Part shown: positions 4,224-22,104 of the stretch, piece by piece | Layout: every line of letters starts with the position of its first letter | How positions within the stretch are numbered: the first letter of the stretch is position 1 | Source of the DNA: Pelagibacteraceae bacterium AG-447-N18 | GTDB taxonomy: Bacteria; Pseudomonadota; Alphaproteobacteria; Pelagibacterales; Pelagibacteraceae | Assembly (NCBI GenBank): GCA_003212275.1 | Contig: QCQE01000012.1 | Coordinates: 1-37,536, forward strand | Direction: 5' to 3' | DNA length: 37,536 bases | Notes under the pieces: generated by a model | The model's database searches: none | Seen by the model: the letters and a program-made list of their open reading frames with translations, nothing else | What the model was told of the DNA's origin: nothing | Made by a program: the position numbers and the translations under genes

Positions 4224-4679
4224 ATGTTTTTATCGACTTACGAAAACAAATTGGACAAAAAAGGAAGGGTGTCAGTGCCTGCAAGTTATAGATCATATTT
4301 GTCTAACTTAGGTTATAACGGTGTAATTTGTTATCCATCATTTAATAATCAATCAATAGAGGCATGGCCCCAAGACAGAGTAGAAAAAATTTCAAATTCT
4401 ATAGACTCTTTAAATCCTTTTGAAGAAAAAAGAGATTTTTTTGCAACTTCAATTTTATCTGAAAGCACAAATTTACAATTTGACAGCGAGGGAAGAATTT
4501 CACTTACCTCAAAATTATTAAAACATGCAAAAATCAAAAATAGCATGGTCTTTGTTGGTCAGGGTAAAACATTCCAAATTTGGGAACCAACAATATTTGA
4601 AAAATTTAAGGTTAATGCCAGAAAAAAAGCTAATTTAAATCGAGCCAGCCTTAAATGGGAGCATCAACTTAACAAATAA
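4224..4679 (+). CDS. mraZ: Transcriptional regulator MraZ
   Basis: A 151-residue DNA-binding protein with two SpoVT/AbrB-like half-domains, the first around [13 protein letters not shown] (residues 11-23) and the second around [16 protein letters not shown] (about 90-105), followed by [14 protein letters not shown]. Known MraZ proteins form rings that bind repeated TGGGN boxes upstream of their own gene and control the division/cell-wall cluster. Three such boxes lie at 4170-4194. The ATG at 4224 gives the canonical start [11 protein letters not shown]; no Shine-Dalgarno site is evident. Downstream, ftsZ begins after 14 bases, where rsmH would be expected. Confidence 0.95.
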
Positions 4680-4693
4680 CGGGGGATAATAAA

Positions 4694-6157
4694 ATGACAA
4701 TTAACTTTAAAGTACCAGAAATTAAAGAACTTAAACCAAGAATATTAGTTCTTGGTGTAGGAGGTGCTGGTGGGAATGCAATAAATGAAATGATAGATTC
4801 AGGTGTTGACGGTGTTGAGTTTGTAGCTGTAAATACTGATGCTCAGGATTTAAAGACCAGCAAATCAAAAACAAGAATTCAAATTGGACTAAACTTAACC
4901 AAAGGTTTAGGTGCTGGCGCAAAACATGAAATAGGTCAAGCAGCAGCAGGTGAATCTTTGAATGACATTGTTGATATTCTAAAAGGTGCAAACATGGTTT
5001 TTATAACCGCTGGAATGGGTGGAGGAACTGGTACGGGTGCTGCACACGTGATTGCAAGAGCTGCCAAAGAATTAAACATTTTAACGGTTGGTGTTGTAAC
5101 ATTACCATTTTTATATGAAGCACCATCAAGAATGAGAAGAGCACAACAAGGATTAGATGAACTAAGAAAACATGTTGATACTATAATTGTGATACCAAAT
5201 CAAAATTTATTTAAAATTGCTAATGAGCAAACGACTTATAAAGAGTCATTCCAATTATCTAATAGTATTTTAAGACATGGAGTTCAAAGTGTAACTGATC
5301 TTATGGTTAAAGATGGATTAGTAAATTTAGATTTCGCAGATGTAGAGACAGTCATGTCTTCAATGGGTAAAGCGATGATGGGAACAGGAGAAGCTGAAGG
5401 TGAAAATAGAGCTGAGAAAGCAACAGAAATAGCTTTGAATAATCCACTTATTGATGACTATTCTCTAAAAGGTGCTAAAGGATTGTTGATAAACATTACA
5501 GGTGGGGAAGATCTAAAACTTTTTGAGGTAGATGAAATTGTAAATAAGATAAGATCAGAAGTTGATCCAGAAGCTGAAATAATAAATGGTTCAATTATTG
5601 ATCCAGCTTTAGATGGAAAAATTCGAGTATCAATAGTTGCAACTGCATTAGATGGTCAACAATCCGACTCTAAATCTGTTATCAATATGGTTCATAGAAT
5701 TCAAAATAGAAATCCAGGATATTCAGATTTTACAACAAGCAATGGTGTTACTTCATTTAACTTTTCAAATGCAAGTTCTAATCCAGTGTCTGATGGTGCA
5801 AATGCTCTAAAGTTAGAAAATGAAGTTGTATCAGAAAATATTAATAATAGTGAGAGTGTTGATGAGGTAAATCATCAGTATCACGAAGAATTGTTAAAAA
5901 ATCAAGAAGCTGAAAATATTGTAGAAAACATTTCAGAGGACAATGATACTTCTTTTTCACAAGAAGCATTGAGCTCGTCTAATACTGAAGAATCTTCAAA
6001 TGATTTAAAGGAATTTGGTGTGGATACAGATGAACCAGATCTATTTAATACAGAAAATCAAGCTTCAACATCTGAAGATTTGCTTGGATCATCAGATGAA
6101 GATCAAGAAGAGGATGATTTAGAAATACCTGCATTTTTACGAAGGCAAAAAAATTAA
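4694..6157 (+). CDS. ftsZ: Cell division GTPase FtsZ, relocated to second place in the dcw cluster
   Basis: Tubulin-like GTPase that polymerises into the division ring. The GTP-binding signature GGGTGTGA is at residues 109-116, within [13 protein letters not shown]. The T7 catalytic loop is NLDFAD (211-216), completing the GTPase site between subunits. The globular part ends near residue 320. It is followed by a long acidic Glu/Asp/Ser/Asn-rich linker and the conserved C-terminal peptide [10 protein letters not shown] (475-484), which normally binds FtsA and other tethers. The length of 487 is normal for alphaproteobacteria. A strong Shine-Dalgarno site, GGGGGA (4681-4686), sits 7 bases before the ATG, suggesting high expression. 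The position is odd: ftsZ usually follows ftsA near the end of the cluster, whereas here it is between mraZ and rsmH. Confidence 0.98.
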
Positions 6158-6177
6158 TGGTCTTCGAAAAAATAAAT

Positions 6178-6182
6178 GGAAG
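6178..6182 (+). promoter_or_regulatory. Shine-Dalgarno site that favours the 6188 start of rsmH
   Basis: GGAAG with a 5-base spacer precedes the ATG at 6188. The in-frame ATG at 6176 has no comparable site. Confidence 0.45.
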
Positions 6183-6187
6183 CCACC

Positions 6188-7186
6188 ATGGTATCGGATG
6201 CTCCAAAACATTATCCGGTATTGCTTAATGAAATAATTAGCATTATTACCCCTCAACATGGTGGCACATTTATTGATTGTACTTTTGGTCAAGGTGGTTA
6301 CACCAAAAAAATTCTAAGTTATAAAGATACGCAGGTAATTGCAATTGATAGAGATATAGAAAGTAAAAAAATTGCGGATAAAATTTCTGAAAAGTTCCCA
6401 AACAGATTTATTTTCAAACATAAAAAGTTTAGTCAGTTAGACAACCTCAAACTTAAAAATGAAAAAATCAGAGGGATACTCTTAGATTTAGGTTATTCTT
6501 TTACTCAAATCAAAGATCCAAAAAAAGGTTTATCATTTAATTCTGTTGGAGATCTAAATATGCAGATGGGTTTAAATAATTTTTCCGCAAGTGATGCAAT
6601 AAATAATCTGGATGTTCATGAACTAGAGAAAATTTTTAAATTTTTTGGTGAAGAACTTGAGGCCAAAAGAATTGCATTTAATATTGTCAAAGAAAGAAAG
6701 ACAAAAAAAATTGATACAAAAAAATTAGTCGAAGTGGTAGAAAAATCAAAAAAAAGAAAAAGTTTTAAGACAAACAACTCAACAAAAACTTTTCAAGCTC
6801 TTAGAATTTTTGTCAATAAAGAAATTAGTGAATTAATATATGGTTTAATTGCAGCTACAAAAGTATTAAAAAAAAATGGTATATTGGCAGTTGTAACTTT
6901 CCATTCACTAGAGGATAAAATTGTAAAATATTTTTTTAAAAGTTTATCTGAAAAAAAAAGTATATCCCGGTATATGCCAAATATAAATCAACCTGAAACA
7001 TTATTTAGTATGGTTGAAAAAAAACCAATAACACCGTCAGCTAAAGAATTAAGAGAAAATACTCCGTCAAGATCAGCAAAACTCAGATATGTAATAAAGA
7101 AAAATGATTTTTATAATTTTGAGACAGATATAGTTAAAAAATTTAAAACACTTTTAGATATTGAGAATTTTGGTGAAAAATTATGA
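6188..7186 (+). CDS. rsmH: 16S rRNA m4C1402 methyltransferase RsmH (MraW)
   Basis: SAM-dependent methyltransferase that N4-methylates C1402 of 16S rRNA in the ribosomal P site. The N-terminal [10 protein letters not shown] is the classic family start, followed by SAM motif I ([18 protein letters not shown]), [18 protein letters not shown], the family block [13 protein letters not shown], and the C-terminal [15 protein letters not shown] plus SAKLRYV. I chose ATG 6188 (332 residues) on its Shine-Dalgarno site; ATG 6176 would add four residues. It lies 30 bases after ftsZ and overlaps ftsL by four bases (ATGA), pointing to translational coupling. In most genomes rsmH follows mraZ directly. Confidence 0.95.
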
Positions 7187-7491
7187 AAAAATTTTTTGTT
7201 ACACTCTTTGTATTTTCTTTAATTTTCTCAACCGCAATAGTTAAAAATTCAACAAAAAGGATTGATGATGAAATATTTGTCTTAAAAGAAAACATCAGAG
7301 ATTTAAAAAAAAATTTTGAAAATACTAGATTGGAATTTGATTATTTGAGTTCTACTGAAAAATTACTTGAGTTTCAAAATCTTTACTTTGACAATGAATT
7401 AATAAAATTTGATATCCAGGAAATTCAAACAATTACTAGAAAAAATAATGAAATCGAAATAGGTCAATTAAGTTTTAATAAAAATGAGTAA
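7183..7491 (+). CDS. ftsL: Cell division protein FtsL
   Basis: Small bitopic division protein of 102 residues. It has one membrane segment right at the N-terminus (about residues 3-20, [17 protein letters not shown]), then a coiled-coil periplasmic part with heptad-like Leu/Ile spacing from about 28 to 75. FtsL works with FtsB and FtsQ to activate the FtsWI synthase. Sequence similarity is weak, as is usual for FtsL; the call rests on size, topology and position between rsmH and ftsI. It overlaps rsmH by 4 bases and ftsI by 8. Confidence 0.82.
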
Positions 7492-9175: not shown

Positions 9176-12019
9176 ATGTTACTTAAAGATTATTTCCCAA
9201 ATATTGAAAAAAAATTTGAAAAGACTTTTTTTTCTAACATCTGTTTTGAGAGTTCAAAAGTAAAAAAGGATGATGTCTTTTTTGCGATTAAAGGCACAAA
9301 TTTTGATGGAAATAATTTCATATTAGATGCAATAAAAAAAGGTTCAAAAATTATAGTAACTGAAAAAAAAATAACAAAATTTCCAAATGGAGTATTAATT
9401 ATTCATTCAAAAAATGTGAGAAAATTATTAGCTGAAGTTTCATTTAAAATTTATAATAAAAAACCAACAAATCTAATAGCAATTACAGGAACTAATGGAA
9501 AGTCTTCCGTAGCTGATTTTTATTATCAAATATTAAAATTTAATAAAAGAAAAGTTGCATCAATTGGAACTTTGGGTGTTAAATCAAACAACAAATATAT
9601 CAATTTATCTAATACAACCATCGACCCAATTCAATTGGGGAAGATATTAAATTATCTTAAAAATCAGAAAGTAGATGATGTAATATTGGAAGCTTCAAGT
9701 CATGGTTTAAGACAAAATAGGTTAGATGGTTTAAAATTTAATTCAGGAATATTTACAAATTTATCTCAAGATCATTTAGATTATCATAAAAATTTAAAAG
9801 ATTATTTAATCGCAAAACTCTATCTTTTTGATAAACTTATATCTATTAAAGGCAATGTAATTACTGATGAAAAAATACCTGAATTTAGAAAAATAAAAAA
9901 AATTGCATTAAAGAGAAATTTAAAGATTTATTCTATAAATAATCCCAAAAATCATTTTAAAATTTTATCTCATTATTTTGTAGGTGAGAAACAAATGTTA
10001 ATAATCAAATATAAAAACTTAATCAAAAATATTAAGCTCAATCTTATAGGCAAAATACAACTCAAGAACATAATGATGGCAATGATAGCTGCTCAAAATA
10101 GTAATCTAAGTTTAAATAAAATTTTGGGAGTTATTCCAAAAATAAAATCTGTTGAAGGAAGACTAGAAAAAATTGGCAATATTAAAAATAAATCTAAAGT
10201 TATCTTGGATTACGCACACACACCAGATGCATTAAAAACATGTCTTCTTTCACTAAGAGAGCAATTTCCTAATAAAAAAATCGTTCTTTTGTTTGGTTGT
10301 GGTGGAAATAGAGATCAAAATAAAAGATCAAAAATGGGTAAAATAGCTTCATTATATGCTGATCAAATATATTTGACAGACGATAATCCTAGACTGGAAA
10401 ATCCTAATAAAATTAGAAAAGATATTAAAAGAGGGATAAATAGTAAAAAAATATCAGAAATTTCTGATAGAGCAAAGGCAATTTCTGAAGCGGTTAAAAA
10501 TTTAACCACAGGCAATATCTTATTAGTTGCTGGCAAAGGTCATGAAAAAATTCAAGAAATTGGTAATCGTAAAATTTATTTTTCAGATAAAAAAATAATT
10601 TTAAACGCAATTAAATTAAAAAATTTGAATTTATCAAATAATTTGAAATTAAATATTATTAAAGAGTCATCTGGTGATAAAAAATTAAATACAAATTTAA
10701 CTCTGGGACAAGCTAGAATTAATTCAAAAGAAGTTAAAAAAAATGACATTTTTTTCGCTATACGAGGTAGGAAAAATGATGGAAATAAGTTTATAGAAGA
10801 AGCTCTGAAGAAAAAAGCTTCCATAGTAGTTGTAAATAAAATTAAAAAAAAATTAGATTATAAAAAACAAATAAAAGTAACAGATTCATTGAAATTTTTG
10901 ACCGAAACATCAACAATTTTCAGAGAGAATATAGATGCAAAGATAATTGCAATAACAGGGAGCTGTGGAAAAACTACACTTAAGGAATTATTAGGCAAAA
11001 CTTTAAAAAAAATTTCTAAAACAACTATTTCCCCAAAATCTTATAATAACAAATATGGGGTTCCATTAAGTCTTTTTAATTTGAGTAAGAACGATAATTA
11101 TGGAGTTTTGGAAGTTGGCATGGATAAAAAAGGGGAAATTGATTATTTGTCAAAAATTATCAAACCAGACATAAGTGTTATAACCAATATAAATTATGCT
11201 CATGCTAAAAATTTTAAGAATATAAAAGATATTGCACTTGCAAAATCTGAAATAATTTCAAATACGAAACCAAATGGTTATGTGATTTTAAATGCAGATG
11301 ATAATTTTTTTAGATTACATCAAAAAATAGCTACCAAAAATAATATTAATACAATTTCATTTGGGATCAAAAATCATAAATCTGATGTGAAGTTAATTAA
11401 TATTATTAAAATTAATAATAATTTTAAAATAAATATCAAAGCTAAAGATTTTAACAAAAGTTTTGTGATTTCTAATAATTTTCAAAATAATATTTATAAT
11501 ATTTTAGCTACTTTAGCGGTAATGGGTATTAATATTGATATTACAAAATTAGATAAAAAAGTTTTTTTTAATTTTATAACTCCCCAAGGGAGAGGAGATT
11601 TATCAAGAATAAAAATAAATAAAAAAAACATAAACCTAATAGATGAAAGTTATAATTCAAATCCTTTATCTCTTAAATCTGCAATATTAAATTATGATAA
11701 AGTAAAGAGCAAAAAATTCAAAAAGTATCTTTTACTTGGTGATATGTTAGAACTTGGAACTCATTCCAAAAAACTTCACCAGTCAATTGTTCCAATAATT
11801 AATAAAACAAAAATTGATAAAATTTTCTTAAAGGGAAACTATATAAGTCAAATATTCAAAAAGATTGTAAAATCAAAAAGAGGTAAAGTTTTTAGAACCA
11901 ACTCTCAAATGATTAAATTTATTAAAAATGATTTGAATAATAACGATTATTTAATGGTTAAAGCCTCAAATGCGACAGGTTTTAATAAGATGATAAATGA
12001 TTTAAAAGGAATTAAGTAG
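9176..12019 (+). CDS. murE-murF: Fused MurE-MurF: UDP-MurNAc-tripeptide synthetase and UDP-MurNAc-pentapeptide synthetase in one chain
   Basis: A single uninterrupted frame of 947 residues holding two Mur ligases. The N-terminal half (1 to about 480) is MurE, with ATP loop GTNGKS at 105-110, TTIDP, the HLDYHKN segment, the LIAKLYLFD lysine expected to be carbamylated, and DNPR at 403-406. In known MurE enzymes DNPR marks use of meso-diaminopimelate. The C-terminal half (about 500-947) is MurF, with ATP loop GSCGKTT at 595-601, SPKSYNNKYGVPLS, VLEVGMDKKGEI, and DESYNSNPLS, adding D-Ala-D-Ala. A Lys/Asn-rich linker around 480-505 joins them. Usually these are separate adjacent genes. The gene abuts ftsI before it and mraY after it, so no space remains for independent translation signals. 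Confidence 0.94.
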   Translation: MLLKDYFPNIEKKFEKTFFSNICFESSKVKKDDVFFAIKGTNFDGNNFILDAIKKGSKIIVTEKKITKFPNGVLIIHSKNVRKLLAEVSFKIYNKKPTNLIAITGTNGKSSVADFYYQILKFNKRKVASIGTLGVKSNNKYINLSNTTIDPIQLGKILNYLKNQKVDDVILEASSHGLRQNRLDGLKFNSGIFTNLSQDHLDYHKNLKDYLIAKLYLFDKLISIKGNVITDEKIPEFRKIKKIALKRNLKIYSINNPKNHFKILSHYFVGEKQMLIIKYKNLIKNIKLNLIGKIQLKNIMMAMIAAQNSNLSLNKILGVIPKIKSVEGRLEKIGNIKNKSKVILDYAHTPDALKTCLLSLREQFPNKKIVLLFGCGGNRDQNKRSKMGKIASLYADQIYLTDDNPRLENPNKIRKDIKRGINSKKISEISDRAKAISEAVKNLTTGNILLVAGKGHEKIQEIGNRKIYFSDKKIILNAIKLKNLNLSNNLKLNIIKESSGDKKLNTNLTLGQARINSKEVKKNDIFFAIRGRKNDGNKFIEEALKKKASIVVVNKIKKKLDYKKQIKVTDSLKFLTETSTIFRENIDAKIIAITGSCGKTTLKELLGKTLKKISKTTISPKSYNNKYGVPLSLFNLSKNDNYGVLEVGMDKKGEIDYLSKIIKPDISVITNINYAHAKNFKNIKDIALAKSEIISNTKPNGYVILNADDNFFRLHQKIATKNNINTISFGIKNHKSDVKLINIIKINNNFKINIKAKDFNKSFVISNNFQNNIYNILATLAVMGINIDITKLDKKVFFNFITPQGRGDLSRIKINKKNINLIDESYNSNPLSLKSAILNYDKVKSKKFKKYLLLGDMLELGTHSKKLHQSIVPIINKTKIDKIFLKGNYISQIFKKIVKSKRGKVFRTNSQMIKFIKNDLNNNDYLMVKASNATGFNKMINDLKGIK

Positions 12020-18861: not shown

Positions 18862-19773
18862 TTGAAAAAAATATTAATAATTTCAGGTGGTATTTCAAAA
18901 GAAAGAGCAATCAGCCTTGATACTGGAAGACAAGTAGCTAAGGAACTAAAAAAAAATAATTATTTTGTAAAAATAACAGAGCCAAATTCTCAGTTATTTG
19001 ATGTCATTAAAAAATTCAAACCGAACAAAATTTTCAATGCTTTACACGGTCAGTTTGGTGAGGATGGCTATATACAAACAATATTAGAGAGTTTTAAAAT
19101 TCCTTATACTCATTCAGGTGTAATTTCATCATCAATAGCAATGGATAAAGTGTTATCAAAAAAGATTTTTATAAAGAATAAAATATTGACACCAAAATTC
19201 ATAACTTTTTCTTTCGGCAAAGATGAAAAAAATTTAAATAGAACCATTGAAAAAAAACTTAAATTTCCAGTTGTGATAAAGCCAATCAATGAGGGTTCAA
19301 GTGTAAATGTGTTTATATGTACAAAAAAAAATATCAAAAAAAAATTGAAGTTTTTAGAAGATTATAAAAAAATAATTATTGAAGAATTTATCCCTGGTAG
19401 AGAGATACAGGCAACATTGATTGGTTCTAAAAAACTTGGTGCAATTGAATTAAAACCAAAAAGAAAATTTTATGATTATCAAGCAAAATATAATCCACAA
19501 GCCAAAACTGAACATATTATACCAGTGGATTTACCAAAAAAAAAATATGAACAAATAATGAAAATTTCTTCCAAAGCACACAGTTTAATAGGTTGTAGAG
19601 GAGTTACTCGTTCAGATTTCAAATATTACAAGGGTAAGTTTTATCTTTTAGAAATTAATACTCAGCCAGGAATGACAAAACTTTCTTTAGTGCCTGAGAT
19701 TGCTGCATTTCATGGTATAAGTTTTATTAAACTTATTGAATTAATTTTGAAAGATGCTTCAACAAATAAATAA
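18862..19773 (+). CDS. ddl: D-alanine-D-alanine ligase (TTG start)
   Basis: ATP-grasp ligase making the D-Ala-D-Ala dipeptide used by the MurF half of the fused ligase. The 303 residues show IISGGISKERAISLDTG at the N-terminus, NALHGQFGEDGYIQ (about 60-73), YTHSGVISSSIAMDK, VVIKPINEGSSVNV, and the metal-binding LEINTQPGMTKLSLVPEIA near the end. The start codon is TTG: the conserved SGG motif lies seven codons in and there is no ATG upstream after the murB stop, so TTG 18862 is the only sensible start. It overlaps ftsQ by 20 bases. Confidence 0.95.
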   Translation: MKKILIISGGISKERAISLDTGRQVAKELKKNNYFVKITEPNSQLFDVIKKFKPNKIFNALHGQFGEDGYIQTILESFKIPYTHSGVISSSIAMDKVLSKKIFIKNKILTPKFITFSFGKDEKNLNRTIEKKLKFPVVIKPINEGSSVNVFICTKKNIKKKLKFLEDYKKIIIEEFIPGREIQATLIGSKKLGAIELKPKRKFYDYQAKYNPQAKTEHIIPVDLPKKKYEQIMKISSKAHSLIGCRGVTRSDFKYYKGKFYLLEINTQPGMTKLSLVPEIAAFHGISFIKLIELILKDASTNK

Positions 19774-20422
19774 GAAAATTATTTTTTATATTTCATTAGT
19801 AATCATTCTTGGTACTTTCAATAACAAAAATTTGAAAAATTTTGATCTTCCTAAAATTGATATAGTTAATATAGAAGGAATAGAATTTAAAGATAATGAA
19901 TATTTAAAAATCATAAATTTAATTAAATTAAATAATTTATTATCTATTCAAAAATCCCAGATAAAAGAAATATTAAACTCTAATAATTTAATAGAAGAAT
20001 ATGAAGTGTTTAAAAGATATCCATCATCAATTGAAATCAAAATAGAAAAAACAAATTTTTTAGCATCCACTAATATAAATGGAAAAAATTATTTAGTTGG
20101 ATCTAATGGGAAATTTATTAATACAAAAGACTATTCTCAAAATTTACCTTTTATTTTTGGAAATTTTCAAACAGATAAATTTTTAGAATTTAAAAATATT
20201 ATTCTTCAAACCGATTTTAACTATAATAATATTAAAAATTTTTACTACTTTCCCTCGGGGAGATGGGATATTGAAATGATCTCAGGAGTTTTAATTAAAT
20301 TACCAATCACAGGAATTAAAGAGTCATTAAATTTATCAATTGATTTACTTGATGATATAGAATTTAGTAATATAAAAATTTTGGATATACGTCAAAAAAA
20401 TCAAATTGTTATAAATGATTAG
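19754..20422 (+). CDS. ftsQ: Cell division protein FtsQ
   Basis: Bitopic division protein that gathers FtsL and FtsB at the septum. The 222 residues have one N-terminal membrane segment (about 8-22) and a very short cytoplasmic tail. A POTRA-like part follows (IDIVNIEGIEF onward, with the typical YPSSIEIKIEKT strand about 95-107), then the beta domain with the NGKNYLVGSNGKFI segment. It is shorter than most FtsQ proteins, mainly at the N- and C-terminal ends. It overlaps ddl by 20 bases and the next gene by 8. Confidence 0.88.
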   Translation: MLQQINKKIIFYISLVIILGTFNNKNLKNFDLPKIDIVNIEGIEFKDNEYLKIINLIKLNNLLSIQKSQIKEILNSNNLIEEYEVFKRYPSSIEIKIEKTNFLASTNINGKNYLVGSNGKFINTKDYSQNLPFIFGNFQTDKFLEFKNIILQTDFNYNNIKNFYYFPSGRWDIEMISGVLIKLPITGIKESLNLSIDLLDDIEFSNIKILDIRQKNQIVIND

Positions 20423-21119
20423 AGGAGCAGATTTTCAAACTTATCTTTATCTAAATAATACTCAATATATAATTTATGTTACCGACAATAAAACAAATGA
20501 GAAAATTTGTTCTGAAAAATTAGCAATAGAAGAAAATACTACACAATTAAAATTTAGTAAATTAGATGAATTTTTAGAGTCTAACATATTAAAAATTGAA
20601 AAAAAATTAAATAGTTTTATTAAAGATATATATGTAATTTTAGATAGTGAGGAATTTCACTCAATAAAATTGTCAATCAAAAAAGATAATAATGGAAATC
20701 CTATAAATTCAGAGGCTTTAATTCATCCATTAAGTGATTTAAAAAATTTATGTCAATCAAATTTACTAAATAAAAAAATTATTCATTTAATCATAGAAAA
20801 ATATGTGATCGACAATAAATTTTATACATCTTTACCAGAAAATGTAAGGTGTAATATTTTTTCTTTAGATACAGAATTTATCTGTCTTTCAAAAAATTTA
20901 ATTGAAAATATAGAAAAGACTTTAAAAAAGTATCATATTTCGTTAATTCAAATTTTAAGTGCGAGCTATGTAGAAAAATTTAAAGATAATAAAGATAACA
21001 CTATTTTTACAACAGCTGGTAGAATTATTTCAGGCCACAATAGTAATGAGGTTTTGCTAACCAGTAAAATTACCAAAAAACAGGGTTTTTTTGAGAGATT
21101 TTTTAACTTTTTTAATTAA
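20415..21119 (+). CDS. FtsA-like protein, half-length, apparently lacking the nucleotide-binding lobe
   Basis: Only 234 residues in the exact place of ftsA (normally about 400-440). Residues about 85-188 look like the FtsA SHS2/1C domain. IIEKYVIDN (from about 126) resembles the QEYxID stretch of FtsA, and IFSLDTEFICLSKNLIENIEKTLKKYHI matches its strand plus helix in pattern. The N-terminus could be the first actin-fold strands, but there is no DIGTSK-type phosphate loop and no DIGGGT. After residue about 190, TTAGRIISG (199-207) resembles the TAVGLLHYG segment near the end of normal FtsA. The chain ends in GFFERFFNFFN (224-234), an amphipathic helix like the FtsA membrane anchor. It overlaps ftsQ by 8 bases. 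No other frame nearby holds the missing half, so this is not a simple frameshift. The function is inferred: a membrane tether without ATPase activity. Confidence 0.7.
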   Translation: MIRGADFQTYLYLNNTQYIIYVTDNKTNEKICSEKLAIEENTTQLKFSKLDEFLESNILKIEKKLNSFIKDIYVILDSEEFHSIKLSIKKDNNGNPINSEALIHPLSDLKNLCQSNLLNKKIIHLIIEKYVIDNKFYTSLPENVRCNIFSLDTEFICLSKNLIENIEKTLKKYHISLIQILSASYVEKFKDNKDNTIFTTAGRIISGHNSNEVLLTSKITKKQGFFERFFNFFN

Positions 21120-21183: not shown

Positions 21184-22104
21184 GTGTCATTGTTAAGTCA
21201 AAAAACTTTAAAAAAAACAGCAACTTTTAGTGGAGTTGGACTCCATAGTGGTAAATTAGCCAAAGTGTTAATAAAACCATCTGAGCCAAATACGGGAATT
21301 GTTTTTAAAAGAGTAGATTTACAATCAAACAATTATGTTTACCCAAGTTTTACTAATGTAACTAATACATTATTAAATACTACTATATCTAACGAGCACG
21401 GAGTAAAAGTATCAACTATTGAACATCTGATGGGTGCTTTATTTGGATTGGGAATTGATAACGCACTCATAGAAATAAACAATCAAGAAGTTCCAATTTT
21501 AGACGGTTCAGCAAAAGAATTTATAGAAATTTTAAAAAGTTGTGGATTAGAAAAAAGCAAGGCGCCTATAAAGATAATTAAGATACAAAAAAAAATATCG
21601 TATCATCATGGAGAAAAATTTATTTCTATAGAGCCTTCTAAGTTAAGTTTAGATATTAATTTTAAATTAAAATTTGAGGATTGTTTGATTGGAAATCAAG
21701 AAAATAAAATAAATGTATACGAAGACGATTTGGTAGATATTTTTAATTCAAGAACATTTTGTTTATTCGACGATGTAGAAAAAATTAAAGAAAAAGGACT
21801 TGCAAAAGGTGGTAGTTTGGATAATGCAATTGTTGTTAAGGGTAATGAAATCTTAAATTCTGAAAAGCTGAGAAATCCCAAAGAATTTGTTAATCACAAA
21901 ATACTTGATTGTATCGGAGATCTATACACAAGCGGTTATAGAATAATTGGAAGTGTAAACTGTTCACAAGGAGGTCATTTCCTTACAAATCAAATTTTAA
22001 AGAAAGTGTTTGAAAATAAAGAAAACTTTTCAATAATTGAGATACAAGAAAGAAATCTTCCACATACAATTCTAAATAAAGCCTTATTAAGATCGATTGC
22101 TTAA
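21184..22104 (+). CDS. lpxC: UDP-3-O-acyl-N-acetylglucosamine deacetylase LpxC (GTG start)
   Basis: Zinc hydrolase for the committed step of lipid A synthesis. From the GTG at 21184 the protein has 306 residues. FSGVGLHSG is near residue 15. Glu80-His81 lie in TIEHLMGAL, and His238 and Asp242 in NHKILDCIGDLY, with His265 in GGHFL. These residues fit the zinc ligands and catalytic His of the E. coli enzyme almost number for number. A 64-base gap separates it from the FtsA-like gene. In other alphaproteobacteria and in E. coli, ftsZ stands just before lpxC; here it is absent. Confidence 0.96.
   Translation: MSLLSQKTLKKTATFSGVGLHSGKLAKVLIKPSEPNTGIVFKRVDLQSNNYVYPSFTNVTNTLLNTTISNEHGVKVSTIEHLMGALFGLGIDNALIEINNQEVPILDGSAKEFIEILKSCGLEKSKAPIKIIKIQKKISYHHGEKFISIEPSKLSLDINFKLKFEDCLIGNQENKINVYEDDLVDIFNSRTFCLFDDVEKIKEKGLAKGGSLDNAIVVKGNEILNSEKLRNPKEFVNHKILDCIGDLYTSGYRIIGSVNCSQGGHFLTNQILKKVFENKENFSIIEIQERNLPHTILNKALLRSIA

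Follow-up and report, generated by a model that had tools for sequence, protein, structure and literature searches.

FtsA appears to be reduced to its first domain in many SAR11-type bacteria

In many SAR11-type bacteria, the cell-division protein FtsA appears to be reduced to its domain 1. The version analyzed here is encoded in a stretch of 37,536 nucleotides from Pelagibacteraceae bacterium AG-447-N18 (hereafter the window; the genome to which it belongs is 1.12 Mb in size and 94.8% complete). The frame at positions 20415-21119 of this window is the ftsA orthologue of this genome, both by descent and by place. The two-lobed actin fold with an ATP site defines the FtsA architecture, and by that yardstick the short protein is not an FtsA. 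The best explanation, which we regard as probable, is that it is an ftsA orthologue from which the second lobe (subdomains 2A and 2B) has been excised in its entirety, and that its product acts as a nucleotide-free membrane adaptor of division. A search of the open-access literature (subscription papers and preprints being outside its scope) recovered no account of a shortened FtsA in SAR11.

The short gene, its neighborhood, and its relationship to FtsA

The initial annotation had proposed a 234-residue frame between ftsQ and lpxC, and exactly this frame, with an ATG start, was recovered (Table 1). The gene order of the cluster in the window is mraZ, ftsZ, rsmH, a frame in the ftsL position, a penicillin-binding protein in the ftsI position, MurE-MurF, mraY, murD, ftsW, murG, murC, murB, ddl, ftsQ, the short ftsA, lpxC, bamD, and ligA. 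Within it, mraZ, ftsZ, rsmH, the penicillin-binding protein, MurE-MurF, ftsW, ddl, lpxC, and bamD are matched by NCBIfam models, and ftsQ by Pfam, with the remaining genes being read from their sequence and order. The short gene occupies the slot of the division cluster that runs from ftsQ through ftsA to lpxC, as is the case for FtsA, with ftsZ lying outside this slot. The neighbors recognized by family models are division and cell-wall/envelope genes, with no type II secretion or type IV pilus cluster among them.

Some further features of this neighborhood are recorded in their own right. With mraZ and rsmH on either side (window 4224-7186), ftsZ is placed away from ftsQ and ftsA, and in those sampled relatives for which both places are known it likewise lies about 15-16 kb upstream. 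MurE and MurF are fused in one 947-aa protein (window 9176-12019); among the NCBIfam models, the bifunctional MurE/MurF one matches it best, at 905.9 bits against a cut-off of 1023. As judged by eye, FtsQ has about seven residues ahead of its membrane segment, i.e., almost no cytoplasmic tail.

Table 1. Coordinates of the short ftsA, its parts, and its partners and neighbors in the window
Feature	Position	Strand	Description
Short ftsA	20415..21119	+	234 codons, ATG start; FtsA domain 1 (1A + 1C) and C-terminal helix, without domain 2
Subdomain 1A, first part	20427..20642	+	Residues 5-76; three strands, helix, strand; phosphate-1 loop position replaced; from model and alignment
Subdomain 1C, SHS2-like	20658..20891	+	Residues ~82-159; from model; colinear with E. 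coli FtsA 55-195 (query 48-190)
Subdomain 1A, second part	20892..20978	+	Residues 160-188; helix, strand, short helix; from model
Junction	20979..21002	+	Residues 189-196; long forms have 141-178 residues of domain 2 here; from alignment
Last helix of subdomain 1A	21003..21029	+	Residues 197-205, TTAGRIISG; from model and alignment
C-terminal amphipathic segment	21084..21116	+	Residues 224-234, GFFERFFNFFN; conserved with long forms; modeled helix at pLDDT < 50
ftsQ	19754..20422	+	Upstream neighbor; recognized by Pfam; end overlapped by short ftsA
lpxC	21184..22104	+	Downstream neighbor; NCBIfam match
ftsZ	4694..6157	+	487 aa; ~14 kb upstream of short ftsA, between mraZ and rsmH; NCBIfam match
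FtsZ C-terminal peptide	6113..6154	+	Retained in the ftsZ of the window
Small frame in ftsL position	7183-7491		Assigned by place alone

Short and long forms can be aligned colinearly across 1A and 1C up to a strand ending in Y-A-K-S-like residues. In the short forms, a junction of 10-13 residues comes next, and then the last 1A helix and the motif at the C-terminus; the second lobe (2A and 2B) corresponds to the 141-178 residues absent at this point. In the actin fold, this lobe interrupts 1A between its last strand and its last helix, and its removal would therefore leave domain 1 able to fold alone. The earlier proposal that 2A and 2B had been cut out and the ends joined is in keeping with both the residue-level alignment and the fold, which superposes on FtsA with domain 2 skipped. 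The same proposal had the protein keeping 1C and the membrane helix; both are present, together with most of 1A, such that the retained unit is FtsA domain 1. Likewise, the middle region, which had been placed at about residues 85-188, is 1C-like as suggested, with the model moving its limits to about 82-159. The alignments display no DxGxxK or DxGxxT phosphate loop in the window protein, in agreement with the absence of DIGTSK- and DIGGGT-type loops noticed at the outset. Of the two other segments that had been singled out, TTAGRIISG pairs with the final conserved stretch of long FtsAs, and GFFERFFNFFN pairs with the helix at their C-terminus. The latter segment is amphipathic at the sequence level (hydrophobic moment rank 6 of 224 windows).

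In searches with Pfam, the window protein matched no family, FtsA included. The NCBIfam ftsA model TIGR01174 aligns residues 117-185 with model positions 114-182 (E = 1.9e-4), at a score of 20.6 bits that lies far under the curated cut-off of 175.85. The relatives of the protein range from 93% down to about 22% identity, and it matches 111 of 147 family genomes at E <= 0.001, which exceeds what chance would give. Of the 20 relatives in an alignment that combines short and long forms, 17 are recognized by TIGR01174 (E <= 1) and 11 by PF02491, the SHS2 domain of FtsA (long forms being included in both counts). A profile made from 11 short forms only recovered three distinct sequences from the PDB at E <= 10, all three of which are FtsA (best E = 9.4e-5), with the best match pairing query residues 48-190 colinearly with residues 55-195 of E. 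coli FtsA. Eight long FtsAs from other genera, themselves identified as FtsA by a PDB search (best match E = 1.2e-39), were combined in a second profile, against which the 11-sequence profile gave a probability of 99.2 and E = 1.1e-19 over columns 19-201.

Structure prediction from the single sequence reached a pLDDT of 39, and a run with 34 aligned sequences was used instead (pLDDT 84, pTM 0.79, with residues 214-224 and 226-234 below 50); these 34 rows include three long FtsAs, and the model is hence not independent of FtsA sequences. The first 19 rows of a Foldseek search with this model are FtsA (E = 5.5e-13 to 3.8e-9), followed by PilM (3.9e-7) and GspL/EpsL (2.8e-6). The first 11 rows in VIA-align are likewise FtsA (Z 15.6 to 11.9, rmsd 3.0-4.5, 195-204 residues), with the matched range of the FtsA chains extending from residue ~2-8 to 376-392, such that domain 2 is skipped. 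The resemblance to FtsA anticipated in the initial annotation is thus seen in the predicted fold, which superposes on 1A and 1C. As judged from the model and from the fold and profile comparisons, the short protein possesses a 1A with an inserted 1C (SHS2) in place of the actin 1B subdomain. It shares with FtsA (TIGR01174; PF14450 and PF02491; structures solved from E. coli, T. maritima, S. aureus, V. maritimus, and X. poinarii) the position in the division cluster, the 1A and 1C folds, the last 1A helix, and the C-terminal amphipathic motif, but lacks 2A, 2B, and the phosphate loops. The long FtsAs of the same genus (363-391 aa as read) occupy the same slot and are colinear with it in 1A/1C and the C-terminus; unlike the short forms, they retain domain 2, which is 141-169 residues long and includes a phosphate-2-like DxG motif.

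Proposed mode of action and division partners

In ordinary FtsA, as set out in PMC8998562, the FtsZ site lies on 2B, which also contributes to the ATP pocket; FtsN is recruited by 1C, a link to FtsK has been described for 1A, and the oligomer contacts are 1A-1C and 2A-2B. PMC7613929 describes FtsA double filaments, whose lateral contacts are almost exclusively made by 1C via two interfaces of local twofold symmetry, and locates the FtsN-binding place of FtsA in the 1A-1C cleft. Reduction to domain 1 consequently removes the nucleotide pocket and the FtsZ site known from 2B, and with them the 2A-2B contact; what remains is the membrane helix, together with the cleft and the faces of 1C. From the missing parts we infer a loss of both ATP binding and FtsZ binding.

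We propose that the excision of 2A and 2B would have left 1A and the FtsA-specific 1C still joined to the C-terminal amphipathic helix, by means of which the short protein would be held on the inner membrane. It might there function as a division adaptor independent of nucleotide, with the 1A-1C cleft and the face of 1C as its working surfaces. Ordinary FtsA makes an ATP-linked filament contact between 2A and 2B, which would be impossible for the short protein; as a guess, a ribbon might even so be assembled from two twofold 1C contacts in alternation. FtsZ, in turn, would depend on a newly acquired contact of domain 1 or on a further protein to hold it.

The latter option can be taken further: the short FtsA might no longer touch FtsZ at all, with another membrane protein binding the FtsZ peptide and the short FtsA linking late division proteins to the membrane. 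We give this alternative a chance just short of even. The known FtsZ site in 2B (PMC8998562) is gone, while the C-terminal core of FtsZ, EIPAFLR[RK]Q, is kept in all 29 genomes in which ftsZ was found, with short and long forms alike (ftsZ was not found in a 30th, G101); a co-loss of the peptide, as would be expected if FtsZ binding were lost, was accordingly not seen. Against this alternative, neither of the two candidates searched for was recovered as a replacement: ZipA is found in none of 23 genomes at E <= 1, and SepF in none of the 23 over the cut-off, with weak matches in eight (E = 0.07-0.2). ZapA is present in 22 of 23 genomes and is therefore uninformative with respect to the short form. 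In the search for FtsN by means of its SPOR domain, 21 of 25 genomes had a match at E <= 1, eight of them over the cut-off; the 14 SPOR proteins examined display lipoprotein-like signals and do not look like FtsN. The FtsN contact raised in the initial annotation thus has no recognized partner among them. One SPOR-domain protein is from the genome of the window itself (L184; G000:C5, ~10.8-11.0 kb), with a lipoprotein-like signal and an RlpA-like appearance by eye.

Distribution, history, and selection

The distribution of the short form was surveyed in 128 genomes of the order that are at least 80% complete, 84 from the genus of the window and 44 from outside it, with the classes assigned by frame length. 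Within the genus, 50 genomes have an intact frame of 220-245 residues, 22 have one of 370-401 residues, eight have a broken, cut, or partial frame, and four show no match. Outside the genus, all 39 intact frames are long (378-420 residues), three genomes show no match, and two frames of 216 and 320 residues lie at contig ends (the former checked, the latter by coordinates only). The reduction of FtsA, from which the initial annotation inferred a reduced division system, hence concerns part of one genus and not SAR11 as a whole. A wider draw of the genus yielded matches in 275 of 399 genomes, and in 53 of the 58 among the most complete. Short and long loci also differ in the distance between ftsQ and lpxC, which is 715-769 nt in the former (32 loci) and 1133-1308 nt in the latter (24 loci); five of the 61 loci were not measurable. 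Four possible short frames outside the genus were discarded: those of G115, G111, and G107 are long genes with broken frames (ftsQ-lpxC gap ~1200 nt), and that of G018 runs off a contig end. As a separate observation, certain full-length FtsAs of other genera (L157, L161, L020, and L027) are without recognizable phosphate loops.

A tree of nine neighboring proteins from 56 loci (FastTree; L135, L137, and L147 dropped for lying at contig ends, L170 and L173 for being too gappy) places the short forms in five places, namely L133/L134/L174/L176, L175, L154/L172, L131/L180, and a crown group including the window. Long forms stand between these short groups: the long L153 is joined with the short L131 and L180 at a support of 1.0, whereas the place of L133/L134/L174/L176 is supported at 0.62 only. 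The neighboring genes reject a single clade of short forms (lnL lower by 247, p-AU 0.00016; 52 loci, every third column, quick IQ-TREE). The shared region of FtsA itself (233 columns; L136 and L182 dropped for broken frames) does not reject a single origin (p-AU 0.607), nor a grouping of the crown short forms with L131/L180 (0.247), L154/L172/L173 (0.425), or L175 (0.452). Our expectation that the FtsA tree would display independent excisions was thus not borne out, the tree being compatible with a single origin too. Because the neighboring genes put the short forms in five separate places, either domain 2 would have been excised repeatedly or a short allele would have spread by recombination.

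The second of these, i.e., one ancient excision followed by spread of the short allele through homologous recombination of the flanking genes, is a serious contender to which we assign a somewhat less than even likelihood. It is tolerated by the shared FtsA region and opposed by the rejection of one short clade by the neighboring genes. Two further lines of evidence bear on it, neither being decisive. The short groups are about 30-37% identical to each other, which speaks against a recent spread. The short L180 is nearest to the long L153 (54% over the shared part), followed by the short L131 and the long L163 (50% each), and it has a remnant of the phosphate-1 loop, LDLSSTK, where L153 has FDLGSSK; at the level of these sequences, this favors a separate excision in that line.

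The short ftsA is under purifying selection, which is weaker than in its neighbors: its dN/dS against ten close relatives is 0.14-0.31 (median 0.25), compared with 0.19 for ftsQ (8 pairs), 0.14 for ddl (8 pairs), and 0.07 for lpxC (10 pairs). This difference might be read as a sign that the gene is a decaying relic without a division function, with FtsA on its way out and other proteins doing its work. The already smaller domain 2 in the long forms of the genus (141-169 residues versus 167-178 in other genera) could be taken in the same sense, as could the broken frames (e.g., in L136 and L182) and the genomes of the genus with damaged or no matches. However, a dN/dS in this range, an intact frame in the majority class of the genus, and a C-terminal motif that is among the most conserved parts render this reading improbable. 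Moreover, a number of the partial frames are cut off by the end of a contig, and in draft genomes of other genera the long genes, too, include broken frames. The short frames of L136 (G078, a single contig) and L182 (G282) are broken near runs of A, for which sequencing error, decay, and slippage would serve alike.

Two remaining alternatives are very unlikely. A separate gene might encode domain 2, with the halves working together and keeping the full function of FtsA, but nothing was found in favor of this: a domain-2 profile from 23 long forms has no match in the genome of the window, and at E <= 10 it has none in 21 of 22 short-form genomes, with a noise match in the other (G505; E = 0.024, 13.6 bits), although it matches 14 of 14 long-form genomes at E = 3.8e-42 to 2.8e-54 (11 of which supplied the profile and three did not). 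Four of the blank genomes are single-contig with intact frames (G003, G035, G063, and G017). The only FtsA-family match in a PF14450 search of the window genome is MreB, and the full-length ftsA elsewhere in the genome that would have spoken against the initial annotation was not encountered.

According to the other, the protein does not descend from FtsA, and a scaffold with an actin fold like that of GspL or PilM has taken over the ftsA slot. The cytoplasmic domain of GspL/EpsL resembles the short protein in size and is likewise an actin-like scaffold that lacks a complete second lobe, and its fold match (VIA-align Z 11.2 over 149 residues) lies, together with that of PilM (also Z 11.2), within 1 of the lowest FtsA row; most FtsA rows are higher, and GspL/EpsL is a transmembrane protein of the type II secretion machine. 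PilM, of the type IV pilus, differs in keeping all four subdomains and nucleotide binding. It has an FtsA-like fold with 1C, and binds the cytoplasmic tail of a bitopic partner in its 1A-1C cleft (PMC7613929). The shared slot with a graded series of long relatives in the genus, the short-form profile matching FtsA alone in the PDB as well as the long FtsAs, and the C-terminal motif common to short forms and long FtsAs leave this scaffold alternative with hardly any credibility.

Implications for FtsA function

In bacterial division, FtsA is regarded as the ATP-dependent actin, with the role of its nucleotide and polymer state being debated. Against this background, the reduction of FtsA to domain 1 constitutes a natural experiment: bacteria that live freely in the ocean, where they are probably very abundant, have dispensed with the nucleotide lobe and with the subdomain that binds FtsZ, and selection maintains the rest. 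Three functions of FtsA are thereby set apart, namely binding to the membrane, scaffolding by 1C, and the formation of ATP-dependent filaments together with the tethering of FtsZ; we know of no laboratory mutants that cleanly separate these three. The nucleotide site seems to be in the course of being let go by the family via more than one route. In cells with the short form, division must proceed without a standard FtsA, and this raises a sharp question as to what holds FtsZ, its tail unchanged, at the membrane.

A more specific scenario, which we put forward as a doubtful but consequential one, would combine several of the above elements: the ATP lobe would have been excised several times in parallel in one SAR11 genus, with a near-identical product of 1A, 1C, and helix; the FtsZ tail would be bound by a new site on domain 1; and assembly on the membrane would proceed without nucleotide through the two twofold 1C-1C contacts of FtsA double filaments. 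If this were true, ATP-driven polymerization of FtsA would be dispensable for division.
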